Of a stretch of 64,000 nt of DNA, positions 3,417 through 38,169 are shown piece after piece. The notes under the pieces were generated by a model, which was not told the origin of the DNA, ran no database searches, and saw nothing but the letters and a program-made list of their open reading frames with translations. Origin of the DNA: Rhizobium sp. PP-CC-3A-592 (GTDB taxonomy: Bacteria > Pseudomonadota > Alphaproteobacteria > Rhizobiales > Rhizobiaceae); contig NZ_QJSR01000001.1 in assembly GCF_003217095.1 (NCBI RefSeq), positions 1,092,009-1,156,008 of the forward strand, read 5' to 3'. A program made the position numbers and the translations under genes. Position 1 is the stretch's first letter. Each line of letters starts with the position of its first letter.

Positions 3417-3435
3417 TGATCCAGGACGCAGCGCA

Positions 3436-4278: not shown

Positions 4279-4390
4279 TGGCCATCTTACCAACCAGCGC
4301 CATCTGCTGCGCCGGGTTGGGCGCAAGCCGTGCAGTCCGGCCTGTAGCGCGCTGCCCACAAGTTCAACTCCGGTACCTGCGACGACGGCG

Positions 4391-4724: not shown

Positions 4725-4789
4725 AGCTTTCGCGAATTCGGGTATGTCTATCACCTCGACAAAGAGGTTCGTCGGCGCCGCCAGCCCGC

Positions 4790-5392: not shown

Positions 5393-5457
5393 GGCGTGCT
5401 CCTTGTTGTCCCGTTGGGACATGGATCTCTCGTGGGACGTTTGCGCTTTCAGGGGCG

Positions 5458-6708: not shown

Positions 6709-6738
6709 TGTTGCCTCGCGATCGCTCGGGTGCAGACC

Positions 6739-6788
6739 CTATAGCATTTCTTGTTCAGGCCGATTCACCGGAACGAGAAATGCTATAG
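6739..6788. repeat. Palindromic intergenic element, first half
   Basis: Arms at 6739-6756 and 6771-6788 (starting CTATAGCATTTCT) pair over 18 bp with one wobble position, with a 14 bp loop. This is the style of dispersed intergenic mosaic elements in Rhizobiaceae. It lies between two divergent genes and may also act as a transcript end or RNA stem. Confidence 0.7.
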
Positions 6789-6799
6789 ATTCAAAGTGG

Positions 6800-6840
6800 A
6801 GAGCGACCTTTGCGCGTTCACATGAACGCGGTGGCGCTCT
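6800..6840. repeat. Palindromic intergenic element, second half
   Basis: The inner arms CGCGTTCA (6813-6820) and TGAACGCG (6823-6830) are perfect. The outer arms AGAGCG (6800-6805) and CGCTCT (6835-6840) also pair, giving a two-tier stem. With the palindrome just before it, this looks like a RIME-type Rhizobiaceae repeat unit of about 100 bp. Confidence 0.65.
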
Positions 6841-6903
6841 ACGGGTCGGCGAAGTTGAAACGGGTTTTCGCGGGAACGCAAGGCCGGAGATGGCGATGAA
6901 TCG

Positions 6904-21903: not shown

Positions 21904-23805
21904 ATGACCGCATCCGCCGGTCCTGCCCAGCAGGACACCGCAGGCACGAAGAAGTTCCTCGTCCTGCTCATGGGATCCATCGGCGTCGTCTATGGCGATA
22001 TCGGGACCAGCCCACTTTACGCGTTCCGCGAAGCGCTCCGTCCGTTTTCGCATGACGGCATCAGCCATAACGAGGTGATCGGGCTGATATCGCTGATGGT
22101 CTGGACGCTGACGATCATCGTCACTTTCAAATACGTGCTCTTCCTCTTGCGCGCCGACAATGACGGCGAAGGCGGCACCCTGTCGCTTCTCGCCCTTCTG
22201 ATGAAGAAGACGGGCCGCTACATGCCAGTCCTGTTCTTTGCAGGCATCATCGGCGCCGCACTGTTCATCGGGGATGCCATGATCACGCCGGCGCTATCGG
22301 TGATGTCCGCCGTCGAGGGGCTGAAGCTCGTGACGCCGGCGCTGAGCGGCTACGTCCTGCCGATCTCGGCCGCCATGATGGTTGGCCTCTTCGCCGTCCA
22401 GTCGCGCGGCACCGCCGCCGTCTCCAATTTCTTCGGGCCGATCACCGTTCTCTGGTTCCTGGCCATGGCCTGGGGCGGCATCCTGCATATCGGCGACGAC
22501 TACACGATCCTCGAAGCGCTCAATCCGATCAACGCCGTCTGGTTCATCACCCATGCCGGCTTCGTCGGGCTGATCGTGCTCGGCGCCGTGTTCCTCACCG
22601 TCACCGGGGCCGAAGCGCTCTACGCCGATCTCGGCCATTTCGGCCGCAAGCCGATCCAGGTCGCGTGGTTCATCCTCGTCTTTCCGTCGCTGGCCCTCAA
22701 CTATCTTGGCCAGGGCGCCTTCGTGCTGGCGCATCCGGAGGCGGCGGAAAACCCGTTCTACCTGATGTATCCGGACTGGGCGCTGCTGCCGGTCGTGCTT
22801 CTGGCGACGGCTGCCACCATCATCGCCAGCCAGGCGGTCATCACGGGCGCCTTTTCGCTCGCGCGTCAGGCTGTCCATCTCGGCTTCCTCCCGCGCCTGC
22901 AGATCACCTTCACCTCCGAGACGAATACGGGGCAGATCTACGTTCCCGCCGTCAACACGCTGCTCTTCGTCGGCGTTCTCGTGCTTATCTTCACCTTCGG
23001 GGACTCTGAGTCGCTGGCGACCGCCTATGGCATCTCGGTCACCGGCGCCATGGTGGTGACAACGCTGATGGCGTTCCAGTTCCTCCGCTCGGTGTGGAAA
23101 TGGAGCGCCGTTGCCGCCGGTGCCGTTCTCCTGCCGCTTCTGCTTCTCGAAACGGTCTTCCTCGCCGCCAACCTCCTCAAGATCCATGATGGCGGCTGGG
23201 TGCCCGTCCTTCTGGCGGCGACCATCATGGTCATCATGTGGACATGGCGGAAGGGCTCGATGATCCTGCGCGAGAAGACAGCGCGCAACGACATCCCGCT
23301 CGAAACCTTCATCCGGTCGATTGAGAAGAAGTCCGATCACGCCCCGGTCGCCGTTCCCGGCACGGCCGTGTTCCTGACCAGCGTGCCCGACAAGACGCCG
23401 GCGGTGCTGCTGCACAATATCAAGCACAACCACGTCCTGCACGAGCAGAACGTCATCCTGACCGTTCGCACCGCCGACACGCCCTATGTGCCGCCTGCAT
23501 CGCGCATCGAACTCGTCCGGATTTCCGATCGCTTCCTCCGCCTCCAGATCACATTCGGATTCATGGACGACCAGAACGTGTCCAAGGCGCTGGGTCTCTG
23601 CAAGAAGGCAGGCTTCAAGTTCGAGATCATGCAAACATCGTTTTATGTCGGACGGCGCAACCTGATCAGCGACCCGAACTCCGGCCTGCCCAAGTGGCAG
23701 GATCGCCTCTACATCGCGCTCGCCGGCATCGGCATCGACCCTTCCGACTACTTCCGCCTGCCGGCAAACCGGGTGGTGGAGCTCGGCGAACAGGTGACGA
23801 TCTGA
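21904..23805 (+). CDS. kup: Low-affinity potassium uptake protein Kup
   Basis: The 633-residue KUP/HAK/KT family protein has about 12 membrane helices and a cytoplasmic C-terminal domain (about 460-633). The family hallmark [18 protein letters not shown] lies at residues 24-41, followed by [16 protein letters not shown] and [18 protein letters not shown]. It imports potassium, probably with protons. Length matches the family. It is divergent from nasT and not evidently part of either neighbouring locus. Confidence 0.95.
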
Positions 23806-24353: not shown

Positions 24354-27300
24354 ATGACAGCAGAAATCATAGGGCGCGCCTGCGTCGCTCCGGGAGCTGA
24401 TTCGCCTCAAGCGCTTTTCCGGCTTCTGCGGCAGGGCAAATGTGCGGTAACGCAGATTCCATCGGATCGGTGGGACCTTGCTCGCTTCTGGCATCCCGAG
24501 ATGGGCAACCCCGGCAAGACCTATTCGTTTGCCGCTGGAGTGATCGACGACATCTACGGTTTCGATCCTGCCGCCTTCGGCATGTCGCAGCGCGAAGCCA
24601 TGTATATGGATCCGCAGCAGCGCGTTCTCCTGCAGCTGGCATGGCGCGCGGTCGAAGACGCCAACATCTCGCTCACCTCGCTCCAGGGCGAAAATGTCGG
24701 CGTCTATGTCGGTGCGTCAAGCCTCGACCATGCCAACCTGACGGTCGAAGACCCGGCGGCTGCCGGCCCCTATTTCATGACCGGCAATACGCTGTCCGTC
24801 ATTTCCAACCGGATCTCCCACATCTTCGGGCTCAGCGGCCCGTCCATGACCATCGATACGGCCTGTTCGTCCTCCATCGTCGCGCTCGATCAGGCGATGC
24901 GGGCGCTGAATGCCGGAGAGATCGACACCGCCATCGTCGGCGGCATCAACATTCTCGCCCATCCCCTGCCCTTCGTCGGCTTTGCGCAGGCGCGCATGCT
25001 GTCGCCCGAAGGCCTGTGCCGCGCCTATGACAACGACGGCGCTGGCTATGTGCGTGCCGAAGGCGGCGTCGTGTTCGTCCTACGCCGCTCCGACCGGGCC
25101 CGGCAGGAAAAGGATCGCAGCTACGCGCGCATCGTCGCAACGGGTACGAACTCGGCCGGCCGCACGAACGGCATTTCGCTGCCGTCGCGCGAGTCCCAGG
25201 CAGCCCTGCTGCGGTCGATCTACGAAGGCAACAATATCGACGCCAACCAGGTCGCCTTCGTCGAGGGCCACGGGACCGGCACGAAGGTCGGCGACCCGGC
25301 GGAAGTCTGGTCGATCGGCACGGTCATCGGCACCAACCGGCGCGCGCCGGTACCGATCGGCTCAATCAAGTCGAATATCGGGCACACCGAGCCTGCATCC
25401 GGCCTCTTCGGCATGCTGAAGGCCGTCATGGCGCTCGAGAACAATTATCTCCCGGCATCGCTGCATTTCGATACGCCAAACGAGAACATCGACTTCGACG
25501 GATTGAACGTGCGCGTCACGGCGAACCCGATCGAGCTTCTGCGCGGCAAGCGCGCGCGCCTTGCCGGCATCAACTCTTTCGGCTTCGGCGGCGCCAATGC
25601 GCATGTCGTGATTTCCGATCCCGAGCCCGTATCCGAAGACCGCCAGCGCAACGCGGCTTCCGGTCATATGTTCATGGCGAGCGCCCATACGGCGAGCAGC
25701 CTCGAAGAGCTTCTGCGCGCCTATAAATCGTCCTTCGCCAAGGCCTCCCGCGAGGAGGCCCGTGCCATCATCGCCGCGTCCGGTGCCAACCGCACGGCCA
25801 TGCGCCACCGCTTTGCGGCACGCAGCGAGAACCCCGAAGACATCATCCGCGCCATTTCGAGCCATATCGAAGCTCCGGCGTCCGATCTCGGCGAGACCGG
25901 TGAGGCCGTGACGCGGGATGCGAAGGTCGCCTTCGTGTTTTCCGGAAACGGCTCTCAGTGGGCCGGCATGGGTGCGGACGCCTTCCGCGAGAACCTGCAT
26001 TTCCGCCAGTGCTTCACCTCGATCAGCGCTCTGTTCAAGTTCCATGCCGACCTCGATCTTGCAGCGCTGCTGACCGATCCGGACCTTGCCCATAAGCTGG
26101 CCGACACCAAGATCGCCCAGCCGCTGCTCTTTGCGGTGCAGGCAGCCCTGTCGGATTCGCTGGTTGCCATGGGAATCAAGCCGACGGCCGTCTTCGGCCA
26201 TTCCGTCGGCGAAATCGCTGCCGCCTATGCAGCCGGCGCCCTGTCGCTGGTCGATGCGGTGGCGATCGTCGCAAAACGCTCGCTGCATCAGGACCTGCTG
26301 GCCGGCAAGGGCACCATGGCCGCCGTCATGCTGGGCGACGAGGCCGCACAGGCCTTCGCGGAGAAGCACGGCATCGCCAATGTCTGCGTCGCCGCCATCA
26401 ATGCCCGCAACTCCGTGACCATCTCGGGGCCCGTGGCCGAAGTGACCGCGTTCCGGGATGCCGCCCGCAAGGCGAAGATCCCGGTCCAGATCCTCGACAT
26501 CAACTATCCGTTCCACCACCCGATCATCGACCAGGCCAAAAAGGCCTTCATGGGCGATATTCCGGACCTGGCGCCGCGCACCACCGAGATCGCCTATCTT
26601 TCCACCGTCACAGGCGAGCGCCTCGACGGGTCTCAGCTGGATGTCGACTACTGGTGGAAGAACGTGCGCGAGCCAGTTCGCTTCCAGGCCGCGACGGAAG
26701 CGGCCATCGCGCTCGGCTGCACGCTGTTCCTCGAGATCTCGCCACGCCCGATCCTGTCGTCCTACGTCAAGGAAACGATCAAGGCGGCGACCGCGCCGGG
26801 CATCGTGGTGCCCACATTGCTGAAGGAGATTGCGGGCAAGGGGATCGACCCGGTTTCGCGCGCCATGGCCCGCGCCATCGCGCATGGTGCCGACTGCAAT
26901 CCGGCACGCCTCTTCGGCAAACGGAACGCGTCCGTACGCCTGCCGTTGCTGCCATTCGAGCCGACTGAACTCCGGCCGGCCGTCACAAGCGACAGCGCCG
27001 ACCTCTTCGGCCGCGGCTCCCGCGTCCCCTATACGCTTGCCGGCTGGCGCGCGGATCTGAACGGTGGCAGCTGGAAGAACCATATCGACGGGCATCTTTT
27101 TCCGGATCTCGCCGAACACGTCGTCGATGGAAAATCCATCCTGCCGGGCAGCGGCTTCATCGAGATCGCGATCTCCGCAGCGCAGCAGTTCTATGGCACG
27201 AGTGAGGTCGAGATCACCAATCTTGAAATCGTGCGGCCGCTGGAACTCGGCGATACCAGGATCATGGAGCTTTCGACGATTCTGTCGCCGGAGACCGGCG

Positions 27301-30300
27301 ACATCGAGATCCGCTCGCGCGAGCGCCTGACGGAAGACGACTGGGCGGTGCATGCGGTTGCCCGCTGCCGCAAGCCGATCGCGCGCAACGACCACATCCG
27401 GCCCGACTTCAAGGGCCTTGAGAAGACGGAAACCGTTCTTGCGGCAAAGGCCTACGAGACGGCGCGGCAGTTCGGGCTGGATTACGGTCCGAGATTCCAG
27501 CTGCTGTCGAAGGCCGTCGCGTTCGGCGAGCGGTTCATCGATGTCGAGCTGAAGACGCCGTCCGAGGCCGGGCACCCCTTCGTGTCCTACAGCCTCAATC
27601 CGATCTCCGTCGATGCGACCTTCCACGGCATGGTGGCGCTGTTCGGCCGGTTTACCGGCGAAGCCGGCGGCGCGCCATACATTCCCGTTCGTTTCGGTTC
27701 GGTTCGGCTTGCAGCCTCTGGACAGGTGATCAAGCGGGCGATCGCCGAGGTGGAGCGTGTCAGCGCGAACTCGATCAAGGCGAAGTTCCGTTTTTACGGC
27801 GAGGACGGCAAGCTCGTCGCTGCGTTCGACGACTGCCGCTTCCGCCGGACCTATCTGCGCCAGCACAAGACGCTGGACATGCTGTCCTACCACTACGAGG
27901 CCGTGCCCTCCGATACGCTGGCGGCCATGCGGCCCGCGCAGCCGAAGCCGCTGCCGGCTATTCTTCTGCCGGCCGATGGCGGCGACGGGATCGACAACAC
28001 GACGCTGCTCTTCAACGCGGCCATCTACCGGGCCTGCCACGAAATCGCGCTGAAGCTTGCGCGCGGCGGCAACCAGGTGGACATGCGGCTTCTGCCCGGC
28101 GATGTCGGCTTCCGCTGCTTCCTCAGCAACTGCCTCGTCGTTCTCGGAGATGCAGGCCTTGCAGAGCATACCGACAATCGCTGGACAGTGGCGGCGGACT
28201 TCGCGCTGCCTCCGGTCAGCGAAATCCTGAAGGAACTCTACGCCGAAAATGCCGCACGTGCCGTCGAGGCCGTGCTGATCAACGATGCCTACACGGAAGC
28301 GCTCGATCGCCTGTCGGCACTCTATGCTACGGAACTCTCCGGCCAGAGCGTCGAAGAAGCCGTCGTTCGGACGACCGGTTTCATCAGCGAGGCTACGCTC
28401 GATCATCAGGCCGTCCACTCGCTGGCCACTCGCCAGCGGACCGACATGGTCTACGCGGCACTGGAACAGGCCCTCTCGTCGGCTGAAAACGGCCTTCGCA
28501 TCATCGAGCTTGGCACCGTGTCGGCCAGTTTCACGCGGCGCCTTGCGGCTCTTGCCGTGCGCCATGGCGCAAGCCTTGCCGTGATCGAGCCGCGCGACAA
28601 TGCGCAGCGCAACCTCGAAATCGCGTTCGAAGACGATGCGCGCGTATCCGTCCTGAAGAAGGACGCGTTCACGTCGGTCAAGACGGTCGATATCGTCGTC
28701 AGTGCATCCGAGATGCTGTTTGCCCTGGCGGACGAAGATCCGTCGCTTCGTGGCATTCTCGGTCACGCCCTGCGCCCGGGCGGCGCCTTCATCGCCGTGA
28801 CGACCGCGCCGACCGTGTTCAGCGATTTCGCCTATGGCCTGACGGACGGATGGTTTGCCCGAAGCCAGTCTCCGGAATTCCCGATCGGTCGGTTTGCAAC
28901 CGCACCGCAGTGGGAAAAATGTCTTTCCGACCTGAGGCTCGCCGATATCGTTGTCGATGATCGCGAAGGAGCCTATGGCGCGCTGATCACCCTGGAGGCG
29001 AGAGCCGGCCGATTTTCACTCGACGCAGCCTCGCAGGACGTTGCGGCACCCGTATCGCACCATCCGATCCTTGTGCTCGGAACAGCGGCGGCGACCGCCG
29101 CTTTGCCGGCATCCATTTCCGACTGTGCGATCGTGCCCGTGACGCTGACTGGCGAAGAGACCGACAAGGTGCAGCTCCTCGAAGCGTTCAAGGCGCTTCA
29201 GGGTCGCGCCATCCGGGCGGTCTACCTGTCGCCTGCGCCGTCCGCAGACACGCTCGAGGATTCCGAGCACCTGCAGACCATCGTCCTGTCGCTCAGTGCC
29301 TTCGGCGAAGCTGTCCGCGTGCATCATGCGGATCGTGAACCCACGGGCGACGAGCGTCCGCACCTGGCACTGGTTGCCCCGGGCGGATCGCCGGTCGCCG
29401 CAAAGTCGGCGCTGAACAGCGGCGTCTGGACCTTCTGCCGCGTTCTCCAGAACGAGTACGACCTGATCGATCTCCACGCGGTCGATGCTCCCGCTGCGAC
29501 CCTGTCCGAGGTCGAAACGGTGCTCGCTCTTGCTGCAACGCTTATCGAGAGTGAACACGAGAACCGCGAATGGGCCGTCATCGACGGTCATGCGCAGGAG
29601 ATCCGTGCCGTTCCCGGCCCGGTCGAAGGCACCCTTCGTCAGACGCAGTCGTTCGAGGCGGCGACCATCCGCCAGCGGGTGGCCTCGCAGGTCGGCAGCA
29701 TCGCATGGGAGGCCACCAGCCTGCCGGAACCCGGCCCGACGGATGTCGTTGTCGAAGTCGCGGCCACCGGCCTCAACTTCCGTGACGTGATGTGGGCCAT
29801 GGGCCTTCTTCCGGAAGAAGCGCTCGAGGACGGATTTGCCGGTGCCACGATCGGCATGGAGCTTTCCGGCCACGTGGTCGCGCTCGGAACCGAGATCACG
29901 GACCTTACCATCGGCGATCCCGTCATGGCCATGGCCTCGGCTGCCTTCTCGACGCATGCCGTGGTCGCGCGCGCCGGCATCGCCCGGCTGCCGGAAACGG
30001 TCAGCCCGGTGGCTGCAGCCACGGTTCCGGTCGCCTTCCTCACGGCCTATTACGCGATGATCGAACTCGGCCGCATCCGCGCCGGCGAGACCATCCTCAT
30101 CCATGGCGCGGCCGGCGGTGTCGGTCTTGCCGCGCTGCAGGTGGCAAAGCATGCCGGTGCCAAGGTGATCGCCACCGCCGGCACCCGCGAAAAGCGCCAC
30201 TTCCTGACGATGCTGGGTGCCGATCACGTCTTCGATTCGCGTTCGCTGTCCTTCGTGGAGGACATCCGCGCCGTGACCCATGGCGAGGGCGTCGATCTCG

Positions 30301-31886
30301 TTCTGAACTCGCTCTTTGCCGAGGCGATGGAGCAGAGCCTGTCGCTGGTCAAACCCTTCGGGCGGTTCCTGGAACTCGGTAAGCGCGACTACTTTGCCGA
30401 CAGCAAGATCGGGCTTCGCCCGTTCCGCCGCAACATCAGCTATTTCGGCATCGATGCCGACCAGCTGCTCGTCAACCAGCCGGACCTGACCAAGCGGATC
30501 TTCGCCGAAGTCGGACAGCTGTTCGAAGAGGGCAAGTTCGTGCCGCTGCCCTATCGTGCCTTCGCGCATGACGAGATCGGCAACGCCTTCCGCCTGATGC
30601 AGAATGCCGGGCATATCGGCAAGATTGTTGTGCTTCCGCCTGTTGCCGGCCGGGATTCCGTTTCGGCAGCCGCTGGCACGCGGATGACGGTGTCCGGCGA
30701 CGGCGTGCATCTGGTGGTCGGCGGTATCGGCGGCTTCGGCCTTGCAGCCGCCAACTGGCTCGTGGAGAAGGGTGCCCGCAGGATCGCGCTTACCACCCGT
30801 CGCGGTGTGGCCGATGCGGACACGCTGGATGCGATCCAGCGCTGGGAAGCCAAGGGCGTCGTTGCCAGCGTTCACGCCTGCGATATCACCAATGTCGATG
30901 CGACGGCCGCAATGCTCGCAACGCTGCGGCGCGAAGGTCCGCTGAAGGGCGTCATTCATGCTGCCATGGTGCTTGACGATGCGCTGATCTCCAATCTCGA
31001 CCGGGCGCGCAACCGCCCCGTCATCGACACCAAGGCGAAGGGCGCTGCCGTGCTCGACAGCCTGACGCGGAAGGACGATCTCGACCTCTTCCTGCTGTTC
31101 TCGTCGGCAACGACCTTGGTCGGCAATCCCGGCCAGGGCAATTACGTCGCGGCCAACGGCTATCTCGAGGGACTGGCGCGGGCGCGGCGGGCAGCGGGGC
31201 TGAAGGGTCTCGCCATCGGCTTCGGCGCGATCGCCGATACCGGCTATCTGGCTGAGAATACCGAGGTCAACGACATCCTGTCGAAGCGCATCGGCAAGAC
31301 CGCGCTGAAGGCACAGGCGGCGCTCGACCAAGTGGAAGCCTATATCGTTGCCGACCCCGGCACGGTAAATGCCGCGACCGCCATGATTGCCGAGTTCGAC
31401 TGGGCGGCCGCGCGCAATCTGCCGGTTGTTCGCCAGCCCCTGTTCGAGGTGGTGATGCGCACCGCCGACCAGCACACCGGCAGCAGCGACGGCAGCACGC
31501 TCGATCTCGTCGCCATGATCGAGGGCAAATCGCCGCAGGAGGGCGAAGATCTGCTTTATGAGCTTGTGGCCAACGAAATCGCCGCAATTCTGCGGGTTTC
31601 CAAGGATACGATCTCCCGGAACAAGGTCTTGAAGGAAATCGGGCTGGACAGTTTGATGGCCGTTGAACTCGGCATCAGCTTTCAGCAGAATACGGGCTTC
31701 GACATGCCGCTCTCGGGCGTCGCCGACAACACGACCGTCGGTGACGTCGCGCACAAGCTGTACGAAAAGGTCAGCAAGCGCGACCAGGGAAGCGACGAGG
31801 AAGAGCCGCCGACGGAAGACAAGATCCTGAGCGAACTGACCCAGCGCCATAAGGCGACGTCTCCGGAGAAAGCTGCAAGCCAATGA
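24354..31886 (+). CDS. rkpA: Type I reducing polyketide synthase of the capsule locus
   Basis: The 2510-residue multidomain synthase matches RkpA of Sinorhizobium rkp-1 in size and context. Order: ketosynthase (1-420; Cys171 in DTACSSS, His306, His344), acyltransferase (about 530-840; Ser617 in GHSVGE, PFHHP consistent with malonyl choice), dehydratase (about 900-1170; His922 in HVVDGKSILP, Asp1087), a degenerate methyltransferase-like segment (about 1350-1550), enoyl reductase (about 1770-2095; HGAAGGVGLAALQ), ketoreductase (about 2115-2310; GGIGGFGLAAAN, GNYVAAN) and acyl carrier domain (Ser2433 in GLDSLMAVELG). No thioesterase is present, so the chain should be handed over, probably to RkpG, whose gene overlaps by 4 bp. 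It probably builds a specialised saturated acyl chain. Confidence 0.93.
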   Translation: MTAEIIGRACVAPGADSPQALFRLLRQGKCAVTQIPSDRWDLARFWHPEMGNPGKTYSFAAGVIDDIYGFDPAAFGMSQREAMYMDPQQRVLLQLAWRAVEDANISLTSLQGENVGVYVGASSLDHANLTVEDPAAAGPYFMTGNTLSVISNRISHIFGLSGPSMTIDTACSSSIVALDQAMRALNAGEIDTAIVGGINILAHPLPFVGFAQARMLSPEGLCRAYDNDGAGYVRAEGGVVFVLRRSDRARQEKDRSYARIVATGTNSAGRTNGISLPSRESQAALLRSIYEGNNIDANQVAFVEGHGTGTKVGDPAEVWSIGTVIGTNRRAPVPIGSIKSNIGHTEPASGLFGMLKAVMALENNYLPASLHFDTPNENIDFDGLNVRVTANPIELLRGKRARLAGINSFGFGGANAHVVISDPEPVSEDRQRNAASGHMFMASAHTASSLEELLRAYKSSFAKASREEARAIIAASGANRTAMRHRFAARSENPEDIIRAISSHIEAPASDLGETGEAVTRDAKVAFVFSGNGSQWAGMGADAFRENLHFRQCFTSISALFKFHADLDLAALLTDPDLAHKLADTKIAQPLLFAVQAALSDSLVAMGIKPTAVFGHSVGEIAAAYAAGALSLVDAVAIVAKRSLHQDLLAGKGTMAAVMLGDEAAQAFAEKHGIANVCVAAINARNSVTISGPVAEVTAFRDAARKAKIPVQILDINYPFHHPIIDQAKKAFMGDIPDLAPRTTEIAYLSTVTGERLDGSQLDVDYWWKNVREPVRFQAATEAAIALGCTLFLEISPRPILSSYVKETIKAATAPGIVVPTLLKEIAGKGIDPVSRAMARAIAHGADCNPARLFGKRNASVRLPLLPFEPTELRPAVTSDSADLFGRGSRVPYTLAGWRADLNGGSWKNHIDGHLFPDLAEHVVDGKSILPGSGFIEIAISAAQQFYGTSEVEITNLEIVRPLELGDTRIMELSTILSPETGDIEIRSRERLTEDDWAVHAVARCRKPIARNDHIRPDFKGLEKTETVLAAKAYETARQFGLDYGPRFQLLSKAVAFGERFIDVELKTPSEAGHPFVSYSLNPISVDATFHGMVALFGRFTGEAGGAPYIPVRFGSVRLAASGQVIKRAIAEVERVSANSIKAKFRFYGEDGKLVAAFDDCRFRRTYLRQHKTLDMLSYHYEAVPSDTLAAMRPAQPKPLPAILLPADGGDGIDNTTLLFNAAIYRACHEIALKLARGGNQVDMRLLPGDVGFRCFLSNCLVVLGDAGLAEHTDNRWTVAADFALPPVSEILKELYAENAARAVEAVLINDAYTEALDRLSALYATELSGQSVEEAVVRTTGFISEATLDHQAVHSLATRQRTDMVYAALEQALSSAENGLRIIELGTVSASFTRRLAALAVRHGASLAVIEPRDNAQRNLEIAFEDDARVSVLKKDAFTSVKTVDIVVSASEMLFALADEDPSLRGILGHALRPGGAFIAVTTAPTVFSDFAYGLTDGWFARSQSPEFPIGRFATAPQWEKCLSDLRLADIVVDDREGAYGALITLEARAGRFSLDAASQDVAAPVSHHPILVLGTAAATAALPASISDCAIVPVTLTGEETDKVQLLEAFKALQGRAIRAVYLSPAPSADTLEDSEHLQTIVLSLSAFGEAVRVHHADREPTGDERPHLALVAPGGSPVAAKSALNSGVWTFCRVLQNEYDLIDLHAVDAPAATLSEVETVLALAATLIESEHENREWAVIDGHAQEIRAVPGPVEGTLRQTQSFEAATIRQRVASQVGSIAWEATSLPEPGPTDVVVEVAATGLNFRDVMWAMGLLPEEALEDGFAGATIGMELSGHVVALGTEITDLTIGDPVMAMASAAFSTHAVVARAGIARLPETVSPVAAATVPVAFLTAYYAMIELGRIRAGETILIHGAAGGVGLAALQVAKHAGAKVIATAGTREKRHFLTMLGADHVFDSRSLSFVEDIRAVTHGEGVDLVLNSLFAEAMEQSLSLVKPFGRFLELGKRDYFADSKIGLRPFRRNISYFGIDADQLLVNQPDLTKRIFAEVGQLFEEGKFVPLPYRAFAHDEIGNAFRLMQNAGHIGKIVVLPPVAGRDSVSAAAGTRMTVSGDGVHLVVGGIGGFGLAAANWLVEKGARRIALTTRRGVADADTLDAIQRWEAKGVVASVHACDITNVDATAAMLATLRREGPLKGVIHAAMVLDDALISNLDRARNRPVIDTKAKGAAVLDSLTRKDDLDLFLLFSSATTLVGNPGQGNYVAANGYLEGLARARRAAGLKGLAIGFGAIADTGYLAENTEVNDILSKRIGKTALKAQAALDQVEAYIVADPGTVNAATAMIAEFDWAAARNLPVVRQPLFEVVMRTADQHTGSSDGSTLDLVAMIEGKSPQEGEDLLYELVANEIAAILRVSKDTISRNKVLKEIGLDSLMAVELGISFQQNTGFDMPLSGVADNTTVGDVAHKLYEKVSKRDQGSDEEEPPTEDKILSELTQRHKATSPEKAASQ

Positions 31887-33295
31887 GCGACGACCGGCAA
31901 CCTGCCGCATCGAAGATGAACACCAGCATCCGGGAGAACCTGCTCGACCGGATGCGCAACACGCATCAGTCGTCCGAGCGCAACCGCATGGCCCGGTCCG
32001 AACGCGAGGTTCCGACGCCGGTGCGCCGGACGCAGATGCGGTTCGAGGACCTGCCGGAATTCAAGCAGGTGCAGACGCAGGAGGCGGCGAGCGCGCAGCT
32101 CGGCATCGACAATCCCTTCTACCGTGCCCATGCGACGGCAGCGGGCGCGACGACCATCATCAATGGTCGCGAGCTGATCAACTTCGCCTCCTACGACTAT
32201 CTCGGCCTCAACCGGCACCCGCATGTGCTGGAGAAGGCGAACCACGCCATCGGCACCTATGGCATTTCGGCGTCGGCCAGCCGCCTCGTGGCCGGGGAGC
32301 GTCCGGTGCATGGCGAGCTGGAAGAGCGGATCGCCCGCTTTTACGGCGTGGATGCCGCGGTTTGCTTTGTCAGCGGTTACCTGACCAATGTCGCGGCGAT
32401 CAGCTGCCTGCTCGGCCCGAAGGATCTCGTCGTCCATGACGAGTTCATCCACAACAGCGCTCTTGCCGGCATCAAGCTTTCGGGTGCCACGCGTCGTCTG
32501 TTCAAGCACAACGACGCGCAGGACCTCGAAACGGTGTTGCGGACGGTGTCCGGCGATTACCGGCGCATCCTCGTGGTCGTTGAAGGCATCTATTCGATGG
32601 ATGGCGATGTGGCGAACCTGCCGGCCATCCTCAAGCTCAAGGCGGAATACGGCTTCTGGCTGATGGTAGACGAGGCCCATTCCCTCGGCATTCTCGGACG
32701 CCGGGGTCGCGGTACGTTCGAGCATTACGGCATCGACCCGAAAGAGGTCGATATCTGGATGGGCACGCTGTCGAAGACGACGGCAAGCTGCGGTGGCTAT
32801 ATCGCCGGCAACGCGGCGCTCGCGTCCGTTCTCAAGGCAACGGCGGGCGGCTTCGTCTACAGCGTCGGCCTTGCACCGGCGCTGACGGCCGCGGCCATCG
32901 GCAGCCTCGATATTCTGGAAAGCGAACCGCAGCGTGCCGCAGCCCTCCGGCGCAACGGAACGCTGTTTTTGAAGCTTGCGCAGGAAGCAGGTCTCGACAC
33001 TGGGCTCAGTGCGGGTTTCTCCGTCGTACCGGTTCTCGTCGGCGACAGCCTGCGGGCGGTGCAGCTTTCGAACGACCTGCTGGCGGCCGGCGTCAATGCG
33101 CTGCCGATCATTCACCCTGCCGTGCCCGAAGGCCTGGCGCGCCTGCGCTTCTTCATCACCAGCGAGCACACCGAAGAGCAGATCCGCAAGACGGTGGCGC
33201 TGACGGCGGAGAAGCTCAAAGACCTCACCGACCGCAATTTCGGGCTGGCCTCCATCGACATCCAGCAGATGATGAAACTGCTGGCGGCCCGGTGA
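31883..33295 (+). CDS. rkpG: Alpha-oxoamine synthase of the capsule locus
   Basis: The 470-residue fold-type I PLP enzyme is related to serine palmitoyltransferase and 8-amino-7-oxononanoate synthase. Core features are INFASYDYLGLNRHP, SASRLVAGER, the PLP-ring-binding Asp in MVDEAHSLGILG, and GTLSKTTASCGG with Lys298 as Schiff-base residue. An N-terminal extension of about 85 residues, charged and probably disordered, is absent from AONS. The enzyme should condense an amino acid with an acyl thioester, losing CO2 and giving a 3-keto amine. The ATGA overlap with rkpA suggests it takes the RkpA acyl chain. Known as an acyltransferase in the rkp literature; the sphingoid-like reaction is my inference. 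Confidence 0.9.
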   Translation: MSDDRQPAASKMNTSIRENLLDRMRNTHQSSERNRMARSEREVPTPVRRTQMRFEDLPEFKQVQTQEAASAQLGIDNPFYRAHATAAGATTIINGRELINFASYDYLGLNRHPHVLEKANHAIGTYGISASASRLVAGERPVHGELEERIARFYGVDAAVCFVSGYLTNVAAISCLLGPKDLVVHDEFIHNSALAGIKLSGATRRLFKHNDAQDLETVLRTVSGDYRRILVVVEGIYSMDGDVANLPAILKLKAEYGFWLMVDEAHSLGILGRRGRGTFEHYGIDPKEVDIWMGTLSKTTASCGGYIAGNAALASVLKATAGGFVYSVGLAPALTAAAIGSLDILESEPQRAAALRRNGTLFLKLAQEAGLDTGLSAGFSVVPVLVGDSLRAVQLSNDLLAAGVNALPIIHPAVPEGLARLRFFITSEHTEEQIRKTVALTAEKLKDLTDRNFGLASIDIQQMMKLLAAR

Positions 33296-33347
33296 AACCG
33301 GCGCGACGGCCTTCGGTGACGCACGCTTCCAGAACGCTGGGCGCTGC

Positions 33348-34151
33348 ATGACACATGTGGTCATCACCGGTGGATCAAGCGGTATCGGCCTTGCCGTGGC
33401 ACGGATCTACGTGCGTCGCGGTTATCGCGTCTCTCTCATCGCGCGCGGCGCAGCAGCGCTCGAAGCGGCGCAAATCGCACTGCGCGAGGGAAACGAAGGG
33501 CGCGTTCACATCGCCGCAGCAGATGTCGCGGATGCGGACGCCGTGGGCGCGGCGATCCGCGCCTGCGAGGCGGAAGCCGGTCCCTGCGACATCCTGATCT
33601 GCTCGGCCGGTATTGTGGAGCCCTCCCCTTTCGACGACCAGACGGAGGCCGACTTCGATCGCCAGATCGCCGTCAACCTCTCCGGCTCCGTCCATGCGGT
33701 TCGTGCCGTCTATGCGCAGATGTGCGCCCGCGGACGGGGGCGTATCATGCTCGTCTCATCCGGCGCGGGGCTGATCGGCATTCCCGGATATGCCGCCTAT
33801 TGTGCATCGAAATTTGCGCTGCGGGGTTTTGCCGAAGCCTTGCGATCGGAAGCAAAGCCGAAGGGCGTCACGGTCTCCATCTGCTTCCCGCCCGATACCC
33901 ACACGCCACAACTGGAGCGGGAACGCATCGCACGTCCGGCGGAAGCCGAGGTGATCATGGGTCAGGTCAAGCCCTGGAGCGCAGAGCATGTGGCGACCCG
34001 CATGGTTCTGGCACTCGATCGCGGACGCTTCGACGTCTATTTCGGGCTGACGCTCCTCGCGCTCGGGAGGCTCGCTCCACTCGTTCGCCCCCTCATAGAC
34101 TGGCACTTCGACCGGCAGATTCGCCGCCTACAGAGAGTAACGGAACCGTGA
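33348..34151 (+). CDS. rkpH: Short-chain dehydrogenase of the capsule locus, ketosphinganine-reductase-like
   Basis: The 267-residue SDR has the cofactor motif TGGSSGIGLAVA (about 8-19), an SSG catalytic Ser segment, YAAYCASK with the Tyr/Lys pair (about 147-154), and the block CFPPDTHTPQLE. That last block is characteristic of 3-ketodihydrosphingosine reductases. The C-terminal stretch LTLLALGRLAPLVRPLIDW may associate with the membrane. It should reduce the 3-keto group formed by RkpG. It lies 52 bp after rkpG in the same operon. Confidence 0.88.
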   Translation: MTHVVITGGSSGIGLAVARIYVRRGYRVSLIARGAAALEAAQIALREGNEGRVHIAAADVADADAVGAAIRACEAEAGPCDILICSAGIVEPSPFDDQTEADFDRQIAVNLSGSVHAVRAVYAQMCARGRGRIMLVSSGAGLIGIPGYAAYCASKFALRGFAEALRSEAKPKGVTVSICFPPDTHTPQLERERIARPAEAEVIMGQVKPWSAEHVATRMVLALDRGRFDVYFGLTLLALGRLAPLVRPLIDWHFDRQIRRLQRVTEP

Positions 34152-34234
34152 CAACGCTTGTCACCCCTCGTGATTGCCTCTAGAACTCGGGCGCGACGTG
34201 ATAGCGCTCACGCCGCGATATTGAAGGGTTTCGT

Positions 34235-35839
34235 TTGCCGTCGACATCGCTCCAGCTTCACGATCATCCGGTCTCGTTGATCCTCGTCTGCTTCACGCTC
34301 TCGTTCCTCGTTGCGTGGTTCACCGACAGGTTCGCTCTGCCGGCGCGCGAGCGCCGCCGCAACATGCCGGCAAACAGGACCGTATGGCGCGCCCTGCGCG
34401 ACGGCATCGCCCGCATGCCGGTCGTCGCCATCATCTATGCGTTCTTCTTCGCCATCTCCTGGCGCCCGCTGTATGGTGCCGCTGGTTGCATGAGCTTCTT
34501 CATCATCTTCACCGCGATCTCGCGCGCCAAGTTCCGGTTCATCCGCGAACCGCTGGTGTTTTCCGACATCGCGCTGGTGGCGGATGTCTTCAAATACAAG
34601 TCGATCTTCTATGCGAACTCCCTGAACATCGTCTTCTGGTTCGTCGCCTTCGGCTATGTCTTCGGCGTGTCCGGCCTCTACATGTATTTCGAGCCGAACG
34701 TGCTCCCGAACCATGCCGAGCCGTTCTATGTCGTGGTGATGGTCATCGCCGCCGCTCTGCCCTGGATCTCGCTCTTCTGGGGCCCGGTCAACACGCCGAC
34801 GGCGGACCTCGTGCAGCGGCTCGTCGGCAAGCCGGACGCCAAGGTCAGCACCGTCCGTTTCGGTACCTTCTCCTCCGTCGTGTTCCACTTCATCATCTGG
34901 CTCGGCGTCCGCCGGGAGAAGATCGTGAACGAGCTTTCCGGCGCCTTCTTCGCCGCCGTCAACGACCTGATCGGGCATGATGCGGAGAACAAGGCGCCGC
35001 TGGTCGTCGTCTGGCAGTCGGAGTCCTTCCTCGACATGCGCCATTACGGCGTCAACTCCATCCGCCTCCCGACGATCGACCGGTTGCAGAAGCTCTCGAC
35101 GCAGTGGGGACGCATCGCGACGGTGTTCGAAGGTGGGTACACGCTGCGCACCGAATTTGCCGTTCTGAGCGGGCTGCAGCCCGACGATATTCATGTGGAT
35201 GCCAGCTACCCCTATCTCCGGGCGCGGCACTACACCGACGTCGTGTGGCCGACGAAGCTCAAGAAGGCAGGCTGGCGGACGCACTTCATCCACCCCTACG
35301 ACCGCACGTTCTTCCTGCGCCACAAGGCGATGCCGCTGCTCGGCTTCGAGGAAATGACGATGCTTGACGCGTTCGATCACGATCCGGCGCGCGACGGTCC
35401 CTATGTTTCCGACACCGCGCTGACGCGCAAGGTGATCGAGGCGGTGGACAAGCAAAAGGACGACAAGGGCAGCTTCATCTTCGTCGCCTCCATGGCCAAT
35501 CACGGCCCGTGGGAGCCCGGGCGCGTCCCCGGCTACAGCGATCCCGTCAGTATCTATCTGGAGATCCTGCAGCAGTCGGACAGGGCGCTCGGCCAGCTGG
35601 TCGATCATCTGAACAAGCTCGACCGGCCGGTCTGGCTCGTGTTCTACGGCGACCATGCGCCGCTGCTGAAATCTTTCGCCGACCCCTTCCCAGACCCGCG
35701 CACCGATTATTTCATCACGCCGCTGGCGGCGGCCCGCACGCTGCAGCAGGGGCCCGTGTTCCCGCGCAACGAAGAGCCCTGGAACCTGCTGAAGGCCATG
35801 CTGAAGCATGCGAACCTTCACAAGGACGAGCTGGACTAG
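34235..35839 (+). CDS. rkpI: LtaS-like membrane protein with sulfatase fold
   Basis: The 534-residue protein starts at a TTG, supported by GAAGGG at 34223-34228 six nt upstream; no in-frame ATG matches better. Five or so N-terminal membrane helices (about 12-30, 62-100, 125-150, 170-190) precede a periplasmic sulfatase/LtaS-type domain (about 245-525). Expected metal-site residues are visible: the Glu in WQSESFLD, the nucleophile Thr in EGGYTLRTEF, ANHGPWE and YGDHAP. Such enzymes transfer phospho-alcohol groups from phospholipids or hydrolyse them. In this operon it probably modifies or anchors the capsular glycan; the exact reaction is not known. Confidence 0.85.
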   Translation: MPSTSLQLHDHPVSLILVCFTLSFLVAWFTDRFALPARERRRNMPANRTVWRALRDGIARMPVVAIIYAFFFAISWRPLYGAAGCMSFFIIFTAISRAKFRFIREPLVFSDIALVADVFKYKSIFYANSLNIVFWFVAFGYVFGVSGLYMYFEPNVLPNHAEPFYVVVMVIAAALPWISLFWGPVNTPTADLVQRLVGKPDAKVSTVRFGTFSSVVFHFIIWLGVRREKIVNELSGAFFAAVNDLIGHDAENKAPLVVVWQSESFLDMRHYGVNSIRLPTIDRLQKLSTQWGRIATVFEGGYTLRTEFAVLSGLQPDDIHVDASYPYLRARHYTDVVWPTKLKKAGWRTHFIHPYDRTFFLRHKAMPLLGFEEMTMLDAFDHDPARDGPYVSDTALTRKVIEAVDKQKDDKGSFIFVASMANHGPWEPGRVPGYSDPVSIYLEILQQSDRALGQLVDHLNKLDRPVWLVFYGDHAPLLKSFADPFPDPRTDYFITPLAAARTLQQGPVFPRNEEPWNLLKAMLKHANLHKDELD

Positions 35840-35845
35840 GCGGCG

Positions 35846-37147
35846 ATGACCCTTGGCGGCATGCACGCATCCGGCACGGCACAGCGGGTTTTCCTGTTTC
35901 TCGAAGGGCCGTCGTCGCCGCTTTTCATGAAGATCGCCGGCCGGCTGGAAGCTGAGGGGCATGCCTGCCTCCGGGTCAACCTCAATATCGGCGACCGGAT
36001 CTTCTGGCGCCGGCGCGGCGGATGCGCGTTTCGGGGGCGCCCGGAGGCATGGGCCGGCTGGATTGCCGATTTTCTGACGCGCCACCGCGTGACCGATCTG
36101 ATCCTTCTGGGCGAGGAACGCCCCTACCACCGGGTCGCGACGCAGGCTGCGAAGCGGCTCTCGATCGACATCTACGTGATAGAGATGGGGTATCTGCGCC
36201 CGGACTGGCTGACGCTCGAGCGCGATGGCATGTCCACCAACTCGCACTTCCCGGATGATCCCGATCACATCCTGCGGGCAGCCCGCGACGTGCCCGAACC
36301 CGACTGGACGCGGAGGTATTCCCAGACGTTTCTGGCGGAAGCCGCCTACGACCTTCTCTACAATCTGCCCAATGCGTTTCTGTGGTTCCTCTACCCGCAT
36401 TATCGCCGCCACGCGCTCTACCATCCGCTGGTGGAATATGGCGGGTGGGTCCTCAGGCTCGTTCAGGAGAAGCGGCGCTTGCGGGAAGCGCAGGCGACGA
36501 TATCCGCTCTTGAGGCGGGACACGGTCCCCTGTTCGTCTTTCCCCTGCAGCTGCAGACGGATTTCCAGCTTCGGGCGCATTCGCCCTATCACGACCAGCA
36601 GCAGGCGATCGACGAGGTCCTGACGTCGTTTTCGCGTTTTGCCGCACCTGACGCGCGGCTCGTGGTGAAGATCCATCCGCTCGACAATGGCCTTGTCGAC
36701 TGGGCCGGAACGATTGCGCGAAAGGCTGCGGCCCTCGGGCTCGGTTCCCGCGTCTCGTTTCTCGATGGCGGGGATCTCGCCGCGCTGATCGGCCTCAGCG
36801 CAGGCATCGTGACCGTCAATTCCACCGTCGGGCTGCATGCGCTGCAGCAACGCATGCCGGTGAAGGTGCTAGGAGTCGCGATGTTCGACATCGACAGGCT
36901 GACGGATCAACAGCCGCTTGATGCCTTCTGGCGCGCGCCGCGCCTGCCGGATGCGGACGTCTGCACGGCCTTCTTCCGGCTCGTCGCGGCCGCCATCCAG
37001 GTTCGGGGAAATTTCTATTCGAAGACCGGGACGGATGCCGGCGCGGAGGCGATCGCCGCACGTCTTCTCGCGCGCGATGTCAACCAGCCCGATGCGTTCG
37101 TGGATCCGCCGCCGCGCAAGCGCCCAGTGAAACAACCGCGACCTTAA
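35846..37147 (+). CDS. rkpJ: KpsS-like capsular polysaccharide protein
   Basis: The 433-residue protein belongs to the capsule polysaccharide biosynthesis/export KpsS/LipB family. In group 2 capsules KpsS adds the first beta-Kdo to the lipid acceptor. Family features seen are VFLFLEGPSSPLFMKIAGRL at the start, FVFPLQLQTDFQLRAHS, KIHPLDNGLVDW and TVNSTVGLHALQ. No signal peptide or membrane helix is evident, fitting the cytosolic face of the inner membrane. The C-terminus is Pro/Arg/Lys-rich. It lies 6 bp after rkpI and is the last plus-strand gene of the operon. Confidence 0.88.
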   Translation: MTLGGMHASGTAQRVFLFLEGPSSPLFMKIAGRLEAEGHACLRVNLNIGDRIFWRRRGGCAFRGRPEAWAGWIADFLTRHRVTDLILLGEERPYHRVATQAAKRLSIDIYVIEMGYLRPDWLTLERDGMSTNSHFPDDPDHILRAARDVPEPDWTRRYSQTFLAEAAYDLLYNLPNAFLWFLYPHYRRHALYHPLVEYGGWVLRLVQEKRRLREAQATISALEAGHGPLFVFPLQLQTDFQLRAHSPYHDQQQAIDEVLTSFSRFAAPDARLVVKIHPLDNGLVDWAGTIARKAAALGLGSRVSFLDGGDLAALIGLSAGIVTVNSTVGLHALQQRMPVKVLGVAMFDIDRLTDQQPLDAFWRAPRLPDADVCTAFFRLVAAAIQVRGNFYSKTGTDAGAEAIAARLLARDVNQPDAFVDPPPRKRPVKQPRP

Positions 37148-37158
37148 TCGCGTAGCCG

Positions 37159-38169
37159 TTATGCGACGCCAGCGCGTAGCAGGTCGTGAATGTGCAGAAT
37201 GCCGACCGGCATTTCAGTTTCATCGACCAAGAAGAGCACCGTGACCTTGCTCGACTGCATGACCTGCATGGCAGCGCTCGCCAGCAGCTGCGGCGAGATC
37301 ACGCGCGGCTTGACCGACATGATCGCCTCGACCGTCTGTTGCAGGAGACCGTCCGACATATGGCGGCGCAAGTCGCCATCGGTGATGACGCCCGCAAGCT
37401 TGCCGTCCTTGCCAACGACGCCGACGACGCCGAAGCCCTTGGAGGACATCTCGATCAGGGCCTGCCCCATCTGCGCGCCGAGCGGCAGAAGCGGCATGGC
37501 ATCGCTGCGATGCGCGAGTTCGCCGACGAGCAGAAGCTGCGCGCCGAGCTTGCCGCCGGGATGGAAGGTCTTGAAATCCTCGGCCGAGAAGCCCCGACGC
37601 TCCAGGAGCGCGATCGCCAGAGCGTCTCCGACAGCGAGCTGCAGGAGCGCCGAAGTGGTTGGCGCCAGTCCGTGCGGGCAGGCTTCATTGACCTTGGGAA
37701 TGACGATCGGCACGGTGGAATGGCGGGCGAGCAGGCTGTCGCGGTTCGACGTCAGCGAGATCACCGGCACCTTGAAGCGCTGGGCATAGGCCAGCATGTT
37801 GCCGAGCTCGACCGTTTCGCCCGACCACGACAGCAGGATGAGCAGATCGTCCGAGGTGATCATGCCGAGATCACCGTGGCTGGCTTCCGTCGGATGCACG
37901 AAATAGGCTGACGTTCCCGTGGATGCCATGGTGGCTGCGATCTTGCGGCCGATATGCCCGCTCTTACCGACACCGGAGACGACGACGCGGCCGTTGCGAT
38001 CGGCAATCAGCGTCACGGCATCGGCCAGATTGCGCGCGAAGACCGCATCATTGGCAAAGCTGGTGGCGAGCGCATTGACGCCATCGACCGTGGTGGCAAG
38101 CGAGCGTCCGATGGAATCGAGAATCGCGCTGTCCTCGGTCAAGCTGGCATCGATCGATCTAAGGCTCAT
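37159..38169 (-). CDS. kpsF: Arabinose-5-phosphate isomerase (KpsF/GutQ type)
   Basis: The 336-residue enzyme interconverts ribulose 5-phosphate and arabinose 5-phosphate, the first step to Kdo. A SIS domain (about 45-185; GVGKSGHIGRKIAATMASTG, HGDLGMI, SWSGETVEL) is followed by two CBS domains (about 210-335; GVVGVVGKDGKLAGVITDGDL). The ASHGDLG and HGLAPTTSA sites are as in KpsF. It is convergent with rkpJ, 11 bp apart, and its position next to a KpsS homologue supports Kdo supply for the capsule. Confidence 0.94.
   Translation of the reverse strand: MSLRSIDASLTEDSAILDSIGRSLATTVDGVNALATSFANDAVFARNLADAVTLIADRNGRVVVSGVGKSGHIGRKIAATMASTGTSAYFVHPTEASHGDLGMITSDDLLILLSWSGETVELGNMLAYAQRFKVPVISLTSNRDSLLARHSTVPIVIPKVNEACPHGLAPTTSALLQLAVGDALAIALLERRGFSAEDFKTFHPGGKLGAQLLLVGELAHRSDAMPLLPLGAQMGQALIEMSSKGFGVVGVVGKDGKLAGVITDGDLRRHMSDGLLQQTVEAIMSVKPRVISPQLLASAAMQVMQSSKVTVLFLVDETEMPVGILHIHDLLRAGVA

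Follow-up and report, generated by a model that had tools for sequence, protein, structure and literature searches.

Sphinganine-1-phosphoglycerol as a proposed capsule anchor: a predicted polyketide synthase-fed sphingoid pathway in the rkp genes of Rhizobium sp. PP-CC-3A-592

The window analysed here, the whole 64,000-nucleotide stretch taken from the genome of Rhizobium sp. PP-CC-3A-592 (5.12 Mb in 27 contigs), contains five co-directional genes on the forward strand (positions 24354–37147), rkpA, rkpG, rkpH, rkpI, and rkpJ; the window itself carries no annotation, and the rkp names are taken from the Sinorhizobium literature. We consider it probable that their products work in sequence to make a sphingoid anchor for the capsule. 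RkpA, a polyketide synthase (PKS), would iteratively extend a long, saturated acyl chain on the acyl carrier protein (ACP) domain that it carries and would be incapable of releasing it unaided; RkpG would dock on RkpA and condense the chain decarboxylatively with an amino acid, in all likelihood L-serine, thereby releasing it as 3-ketosphinganine, which RkpH would reduce to sphinganine. RkpI would then transfer sn-glycerol-1-phosphate from phosphatidylglycerol (PG) to the 1-hydroxyl, generating sphinganine-1-phosphoglycerol, on which RkpJ (KpsS type) would begin the linker of 3-deoxy-D-manno-oct-2-ulosonic acid (Kdo), with the capsule exported on that anchor. The formation of sphinganine by RkpA, RkpG, and RkpH is very likely, the addition of phosphoglycerol by RkpI probable, and the start of the Kdo linker by RkpJ on the resulting lipid about as likely as its opposite. 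At the level of sequence, the case is built on the families to which the enzymes belong, on catalytic residues that are intact, and on the linkage of the genes and their co-occurrence across genomes; in a Pseudomonas relative, the first two steps, plus a mass consistent with the product of the fourth, have been demonstrated (PMC12134224). The genes and domains concerned are:

24354–31886, forward strand: rkpA, 2510 residues, iterative-type fully reducing type I PKS or fatty acid synthase (KS-AT-DH-ER-KR-ACP) without a thioesterase
24366–25811, forward strand: RkpA ketosynthase (KS), residues 5–486; PF00109/PF02801/PF16197; DTACS, HGTGT, KSNIGH
25932–26834, forward strand: RkpA acyltransferase (AT), residues 527–827; PF00698; GHSVGE ... 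YPFH
27063–27851, forward strand: RkpA dehydratase (DH), residues 904–1166; PF21089/PF14765
29733–30632, forward strand: RkpA enoylreductase (ER), residues 1794–2093; PF08240/PF00107/PF13602
30702–31235, forward strand: RkpA ketoreductase (KR), residues 2117–2294; PF08659
31563–31754, forward strand: RkpA acyl carrier domain, residues 2404–2467; PF00550; GLDSL
31883–33295, forward strand: rkpG, 470 residues, alpha-oxoamine synthase dependent on pyridoxal phosphate (PLP), proposed serine acyltransferase off-loading RkpA
33348–34151, forward strand: rkpH, 267 residues, short-chain dehydrogenase/reductase (SDR), proposed 3-ketosphinganine reductase; PPDTHTP at 181–187
34235–35839, forward strand: rkpI, 534 residues, TTG start as listed, membrane-anchored, phosphoglycerol-transferase-like (LtaS/LtaP/GacH group), PF00884; proposed to add phosphoglycerol to sphinganine
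35846–37147, forward strand: rkpJ, 433 residues, probable capsule synthesis protein of KpsS type (PF05159), proposed to attach the first Kdo to the lipid
37159–38169, reverse strand: kpsF/kdsD-like sugar-phosphate isomerase gene converging on rkpJ; TIGR00393 at 288.5 bits, above the cut-off of 203.7

An earlier note on this DNA described RkpA as a fully reducing synthase without a thioesterase, and both its domains and its motifs agree with that description. At E ≤ 0.001 the Pfam content of RkpA comprises KS, AT, a two-part DH, ER, KR, and ACP, with no thioesterase family, and the protein carries a series of motifs that we take to be catalytic (DTACS at residue 168, HGTGT at 306, GHSVGE at 615, HVVDGKSILP at 922, DATFH at 1087, GGVGLAA at 1921, GIGGFG at 2124, YVAAN at 2264, and GLDSL at 2430); the acyltransferase, with GHSVGE ... 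YPFH, is presumably of malonyl type. Between DH and ER, approximately 630 residues of RkpA (window 27852–29732) have no Pfam match, part of which resembles, by eye, a degenerate methyltransferase fold such as fungal reducing synthases have. The ACP RkpF, which is named separately in S. meliloti and is by its name part of rkpA today, is labelled with phosphopantetheine upon expression in E. coli (PMC9386255).

The 4-bp overlap of rkpA and rkpG (ATGA) that the earlier note had pointed out is real, the first frame ending at 31886 and the second starting at 31883. To place it in context, an alignment of 16 PKS-linked RkpG sequences was used to scan genome_contigs (one genome per species, 84,980 species), which gave at least 583 confirmed RkpG relatives; all counts of named loci refer to the best 80 of these, the nearest being from Rhizobium, Ensifer, and related rhizobia (RkpG identity 80–86% over the best segment). 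In 77 of the 80 named loci, the gene immediately preceding that of the oxoamine synthase, on the same strand, encodes a PKS, and the overlap is exactly 4 bp in 51 of the 76 that could be measured, which argues that the pairing is not due to chance, although these counts are not independent because the 80 are the most RkpG-like relatives and 22 are of Rhizobiaceae type. Of the three loci without an upstream PKS, two (L137 and L147) are near a contig end and one (L162) comes from Nitrospira. An acidic PKS tail was seen in 73/76 loci and a basic N-terminus of the oxoamine synthase (first 49 residues) in 73/76 (mean charge +4.1, in contrast to about -0.8 for the N-termini of 13 canonical serine palmitoyltransferases (SPTs), with start codons picked by rule), which suggests a possible docking pair. 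Within 10 kb of rkpG, where the contig allows (54/80 loci have near-full flanks), an SDR of the RkpH set occurs in 36/80 loci, RkpI in 25/80, and RkpJ in 36/80; the 25 loci with RkpI nearby have the SDR in 23 cases and RkpJ in 22.

RkpG is a whole alpha-oxoamine synthase, the match spanning the entire catalytic domain, and the PLP-binding lysine and aspartate that the earlier note reported as intact were found as K298 (GTLSK) and D263 (DEAHS); these two residues, like H190 and H266, show no variation across the 16 sequences, that of RkpG among them, in the alignment of PKS-linked relatives. The alpha-oxoamine synthase family is decarboxylating, which, with the intact PLP-enzyme residues, speaks against an older reading in which RkpA makes a fatty acid, with RkpG as acyltransferase and RkpH as dehydrogenase acting on an ordinary anchor of the fatty acyl or phospholipid kind. 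Existing descriptions would accord with that reading, namely a phospholipid anchor, a lipophilic molecule or lipid carrier (PMC3557214), and lipids that are "probably fatty acids" (PMC11766843); the related SgaB nevertheless has SPT activity (PMC12134224), and a simple acyl anchor leaves unexplained the canonical SPT of three genomes that encode RkpI without RkpG (see below). We regard this reading as very improbable.

A maximum-likelihood tree was built from 70 enzymes, drawing on 19 of the 80 named loci, a number that includes L105; L105 itself and L069, which has an in-frame stop, were left out of the tree. In it, canonical SPT (13), 5-aminolevulinate synthase (ALAS; 6), 2-amino-3-ketobutyrate ligase (KBL; 2), and BioF-like enzymes (5; weaker support, 93/65) form separate groups, and RkpG is placed apart from all of them in a PKS-linked clade of 38 rows (support 99/96) that includes two Pseudomonas enzymes (L146 and L157). 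A PKS lies beside the gene in 37 of the 38 rows, none having been found beside L162; an enzyme with a KS-like stretch beside it (L072) falls just outside the clade. RkpG misses the curated cut-offs of the SPT models NF047599, NF047600, and NF047603 (280.6/500, 305.8/640, and 208.4/670 bits), and its best-scoring named model is bioF (357.5 bits, below the cut-off of 426.45); the Pseudomonas (L146) and Nitrosomonas relatives likewise miss the cut-offs of the named oxoamine synthase models. The curated cut-offs and the tree position together rule out RkpG as a canonical SPT. The same scores would suit an enzyme with glycine, alanine, or a different amino acid as its substrate, in which case the product would be an amino ketone or a 1-deoxy-type amine instead of sphinganine. 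We consider this improbable: the same-clade L146 scores like RkpG with these models, yet purified SgaB makes an external aldimine from L-serine and joins this amino acid to acyl-CoAs, barely accepting alanine or glycine (PMC12134224), and a 1-deoxy base would offer RkpI no 1-hydroxyl.

RkpH has an intact SDR cofactor motif (TGGSSGIG) and YxxxK motif (YCASK). A profile of nine RkpH-family relatives (eight with PPDTxTP, one with PSDTDTP) matched TSC10 (8jat), a 3-ketodihydrosphingosine reductase, as the top hit among solved structures (166.9 bits; next 156.4 and 140.7). TSC10 was also the top match of the SDR beside a PKS-free oxoamine synthase in L068 (99.9 vs 75.3 bits). As to the PPDTHTP block, the earlier note was right about its presence in RkpH, and the PPDTxTP codon pattern occurs only once in the genome, within rkpH; its description as typical of ketodihydrosphingosine reductases is too strong because TSC10 has a different sequence at that place. 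The block was found in 21/21 Rhizobiaceae-type named loci with an SDR, and was rejected as a hallmark of all ketosphinganine reductases, being missing from TSC10 and from 29 of 55 collected SDRs (23 of the 55 were aligned).

Separately, in two regions (L067:9023-14851 and L068:6329-11822) a PKS-free oxoamine synthase of the sister clade has as its neighbours an SDR resembling TSC10 and a myo-inositol-1-phosphate synthase, with DUF4833, CTP_transf_1, and an LptF/LptG permease in addition in L067. Based on this gene content, these regions are possibly a cluster for an inositol-phospho-sphingoid lipid with its own export.

RkpI is predicted to have five to six N-terminal membrane segments followed by a catalytic domain. 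Against the Protein Data Bank (PDB), RkpI alone gave four matches, two of them to GacH, one to LtaP, and one to a Vibrio protein that is uncharacterised, and a 28-row profile (27 of 35 relatives used) matched eight sequences at E ≤ 0.001, of which seven are GacH, LtaP, or LtaS-type (best, GacH, 7.4e-38) and the eighth is the uncharacterised Vibrio protein. Residues E263, T303, D473, and H474, presumably the catalytic threonine and metal-binding glutamate, aspartate, and histidine, are invariant in 36/36 aligned sequences. The structure model built from 28 rows (mean predicted local distance difference test score, pLDDT, 86.7) is most similar to GacH (Z 28.2, root-mean-square deviation 2.7, 264 residues), followed by LtaP (Z 24.3) and LtaS (Z 23.5); among the 50 entries listed, sulfatases reached at most 21.2 and phosphoethanolamine transferases at most 20.4. 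A model built without an alignment (mean pLDDT 39.2) was discarded as useless, and sulfatases, MCR/EptA-type enzymes, and BcsG, which also appear in the Foldseek list, scored lower, at Z of about 19–21 vs 28.2 for GacH. A common fold alone does not establish the reaction of RkpI, which is best described as phosphoglycerol-transferase-like, closest to GacH/LtaP/LtaS by sequence and model, with its activity predicted. The GacH/LtaP/LtaS group transfers glycerol phosphate, and the LtaS catalytic domain is periplasmic; by analogy, the catalytic domain of RkpI should face the periplasm. The phospho-headgroup role proposed in the earlier note for an LtaS-like RkpI is thus supported by homology and can be narrowed to phosphoglycerol because the nearest relatives are phosphoglycerol transferases. 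An enzyme of this kind matches the head of the +154 Da compounds of Pseudomonas, which are proposed to be phosphoglycerol sphingolipids (PMC12134224).

The distribution of RkpI links it to both sphingoid bases and capsules. All four queries were run against one set of 398 genomes from the phylum, which gave RkpI in 13 genomes (E ≤ 1e-30), RkpG in 25 (E ≤ 1e-80), canonical SPT above its cut-off in 35, and KpsS/RkpJ in 58 (E ≤ 1e-30). By inspection, 19 of the 25 RkpG genomes were counted as PKS-linked; five others have no PKS (G187, G191, G067, G345, and G394), and one (G157, locus L072) has a 451-residue KS-like stretch by the oxoamine synthase and neither RkpI nor KpsS at these thresholds. All 13 RkpI genomes are among the 52 with a PKS-linked RkpG or a canonical SPT: a PKS-linked RkpG is present in 10 and a canonical SPT in five, with both in two (G095 and G315). 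The three that lack RkpG (G303, G317, and G327) were found to have the canonical SPT on a subsequent look. Among the 58 KpsS genomes, RkpI occurs in 12/18 with a counted synthase and in 0/40 without (Fisher 2e-8, a guide only, the queries being drawn from the window itself), and it occurs in 0/29 SPT genomes without KpsS. A profile hidden Markov model adds RkpI in G185 and G395, raising 12/18 to 14/18, and detected none in the neighbourhoods of 14 of the 40 KpsS-only genomes, which were re-scanned. In the window's own family, the two KpsS genomes without a synthase (G307 and G392) are without RkpI, as is one that has both KpsS and a synthase (G265). One genome (G324) has RkpI and RkpG and no KpsS at threshold, nor was KpsS found in the 19.5 kb upstream of its cluster. 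This pattern indicates that RkpI tends to accompany the combination of a KpsS-type enzyme with a sphingoid base. In G095 and G315 the RkpI gene is on a different contig from rkpA-G.

This distribution bears on the alternative that RkpA, RkpG, and RkpH make a sphingoid base that is an independent membrane lipid or signal, with RkpI placing glycerol phosphate on the polysaccharide and the base not serving as the anchor. GacH, the nearest solved relative of RkpI, modifies a streptococcal polysaccharide (a title in the reference list of PMC11766843 fits this); a similar role has been suggested for WcbQ, where the printed repeat contains "Manp6PGro", read as phosphoglycerol on mannose (PMC11766843), and the Pseudomonas sphinganines have been treated as secondary metabolites (PMC12134224). 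However, with the exception of G324, RkpI is confined to genomes that have both partners, rkp-1 is described as serving the export of K polysaccharide (KPS) via a lipid carrier (PMC4881576), and phosphoglycerol-sphinganines have been reported in the related Pseudomonas system (PMC12134224), so that we regard this alternative as rather unlikely.

For the last step of the anchor pathway, RkpJ matches PF05159 (317.3 bits) and, below its cut-off of 600, NF050054 (200.5 bits). In E. coli, (lyso-)PG is the lipid to which KpsS and KpsC add the Kdo linker (PMC7694667). The rkp-1 products are said to make and modify a specific lipid carrier for KPS secretion (PMC4881576; PMC3557214), and S. meliloti KPS is described as poly-Kdo on a lipid anchor (PMC5539429). 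Since sphinganine-1-phosphoglycerol has the plan of lyso-PG (one long chain, a phosphate, and a free glycerol) and the rkp-1 genes are described as serving a lipid carrier, we propose it as the acceptor of RkpJ. A homologue of the kpsF/kdsD-like isomerase gene converging on rkpJ, which we take to be a Kdo precursor gene, is located within 10 kb of rkpG in 11/22 Rhizobiaceae-type loci. On the other side of the locus, a potassium transporter gene (K_trans, Kup type; window 21904–23805) lies upstream of rkpA. A second capsule-type region of the same genome (L248:7079-14899) has two polysaccharide pyruvyl transferase genes flanking a Capsule_synth open reading frame (ORF), and an ORF of the RuBisCO-large-chain family lies close to them.

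Several observations weigh against a sphingoid anchor made in this way. S. meliloti 1021 KPS reportedly has a "phospholipid anchor", going by the title of Fraysse 2005, and this may be an ordinary phosphatidyl group. Two-domain KpsC was not found in the 27 contigs, in which PF05159 is confined to RkpJ and one partial Capsule_synth ORF, and the rkp system is for this reason not classed as a standard KpsS/KpsC capsule. The periplasmic side predicted for RkpI and the action of KpsS at the cytoplasm-membrane interface (PMC7694667) mean that the lipid would have to be flipped back. In the co-occurrence table, the Fisher value overstates independence because a single family supplies 26 of the 40 KpsS-only genomes; G067, another entry in this group of 40, has an uncounted PKS-free oxoamine synthase, and counting it would give 12/19 and 0/39; and RkpI is below threshold in 9/19 PKS-linked genomes, three of which (G041, G395, and G185) have a diverged copy. 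For RkpH, used as a lone query, TSC10 was absent from the best 60 of 625 matches, and RkpH-like proteins (E ≤ 1e-40) occur in only 5/398 genomes. PPDTxTP is missing from 14/15 non-Rhizobiaceae-type named loci with an SDR, where the SDR is of a different type, and for the SDR of the Pseudomonas cluster TSC10 was outside the best 60 of 143 matches; going by sequence, we read this as one ketone reductase swapped for another. As for the Pseudomonas system, phosphoglycerol-sphinganines were assigned from exact mass (PMC12134224), and SgaB is equated with L146/L157 from the genus, the gene pair, and the gene order, so that homologues stand in for it.

The order acyl-ACP, 3-keto amine, 3-hydroxy amine predicted in the earlier note is the one reported for SgaA/SgaB/SgaC, with the SgaC reduction proposed there (PMC12134224), and its reading of the capsule lipid as an amino-alcohol, sphingoid-like lipid gains support from homology and gene distribution. 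We infer from these comparisons that all steps operate in this organism, with serine as the substrate, RkpI as the headgroup enzyme, and the lipid used as the capsule anchor. PKS-made sphinganines have been known since 2025, and rkp and wcb are known as lipid-carrier genes (PMC11766843); what is new is the joining of both, RkpI as headgroup enzyme, and the co-occurrence test. Among the matches listed from openly licensed PMC papers, no link of capsule, kps, or wcb to sphingolipid or sphinganine was found, nor, in openly licensed PMC papers, any paper that treats rkpA, rkpG, and rkpH together. The rkp-1 lipid is described in the literature excerpted only as a lipophilic molecule or carrier (PMC3557214, PMC4881576), and a 2025 review of capsule attachment contains neither "sphing" nor "polyketide" (PMC12220298).

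It is conceivable, at somewhat less than an even chance, that sphinganine-1-phosphoglycerol takes the place of lyso-PG as the anchor throughout one class of ABC-transporter capsules, those of rkp and wcb type, which extends from rhizobia to the beta- and gamma-proteobacteria. A PKS and an oxoamine synthase would make this lyso-PG mimic together with a reductase for ketosphinganine and a transferase resembling LtaS. The Pseudomonas sphingolipids regarded as "secondary metabolite" products would then be capsule anchor precursors, and in SPT genomes (three without RkpG) the transferase would use canonical sphingoid bases. If true, the fatty foot of the capsule is a look-alike of the usual anchor made by a different route, the makers of sphingolipids include many proteobacteria not so listed, and the PKS-derived sphingolipids of Pseudomonas gain a cellular role. 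If the lipid is sphinganine-phosphoglycerol, mass spectrometry offers a direct test of a question that concerns both rhizobial symbiosis and wcb-type capsules.

Only one experimentally studied system with such a gene content was found, PfSgaAB of P. fluorescens MYb115, in which PKS or oxoamine synthase mutants lack the C24, C26, and C28 sphinganines, SgaC (an SDR) is the proposed reductase, and the authors count 6,101 homologous clusters (PMC12134224, 2025). It shares with rkp a monomodular iterative PKS, a same-clade oxoamine synthase (judged by L146 and L157), an SDR, and phosphoglycerol-sphinganines as proposed end products; it differs in being presented as a secondary-metabolite cluster without a capsule context, and its main text contains neither "capsul" nor "rhizob" (PMC12134224). 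In the Pseudomonas cluster that could be read (L146, P. putida 31753), the PKS gene (2241–9830) and the oxoamine synthase gene (9827–11194) overlap by 4 bp, and the opposite strand encodes, in order, PhyH, two Capsule_synth proteins, GNAT, an RkpI-like protein (Sulfatase family), an SDR of a type different from RkpH, and two further Capsule_synth proteins (frames in L146 and L114 were picked from a greedy ORF listing, which is unreliable in GC-rich DNA). Judged by its genes, L146 is a capsule cluster with rkpI-, SDR-, and kpsS-like genes, and the RkpI-like gene beside the SDR fits a headgroup enzyme, none of which was found named in the excerpts of PMC12134224. The phytanoyl-CoA-dioxygenase (PhyH) family gene (L146:12605-13648) is a candidate for a hydroxylase of the sphinganine chain.

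In the wcb operon, wcbP presumably encodes an SDR and wcbT an oxoamine synthase; its gene order is unlike rkpA-G-H-I-J, and the order H-I-A-G found in L059, L061, and L063 would match it. The PKS of this operon is WcbR (PMC3908369); wcbPQRT is termed a "capsular polysaccharide lipid biosynthesis" operon with an LTA-synthase-like WcbQ, and of its lipid product "little is known" (PMC11766843). The Caulobacter SPT uses a specialised free-standing ACP and not a type I PKS (PMC9386255). Canonical bacterial SPT (NF047599) shares with RkpG its superfamily and the predicted 3-keto product, and differs in forming a separate clade and in RkpG scoring below the NF047599 cut-off. In the fungal fumonisin and sphingofungin pathways, the PKS is likewise off-loaded by an oxoamine synthase. 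These clusters contain a KDSR homologue (PMC12134224). Their products are fungal toxins, with no capsule and no phosphoglycerol head. GacH, LtaP, and LtaS resemble RkpI in fold, conserved threonine, metal-type motifs, and membrane-anchor plan; their acceptors are a polysaccharide or a glycolipid and not a sphingoid base. The (lyso-)PG-Kdo terminus of E. coli K5 (PMC7694667) has in common with the rkp system a KpsS-type enzyme (a probable one in rkp), a Kdo precursor gene nearby, and the shape of a lysolipid-phosphoglycerol, with an acyl-glycerol backbone there and a sphinganine proposed for rkp.

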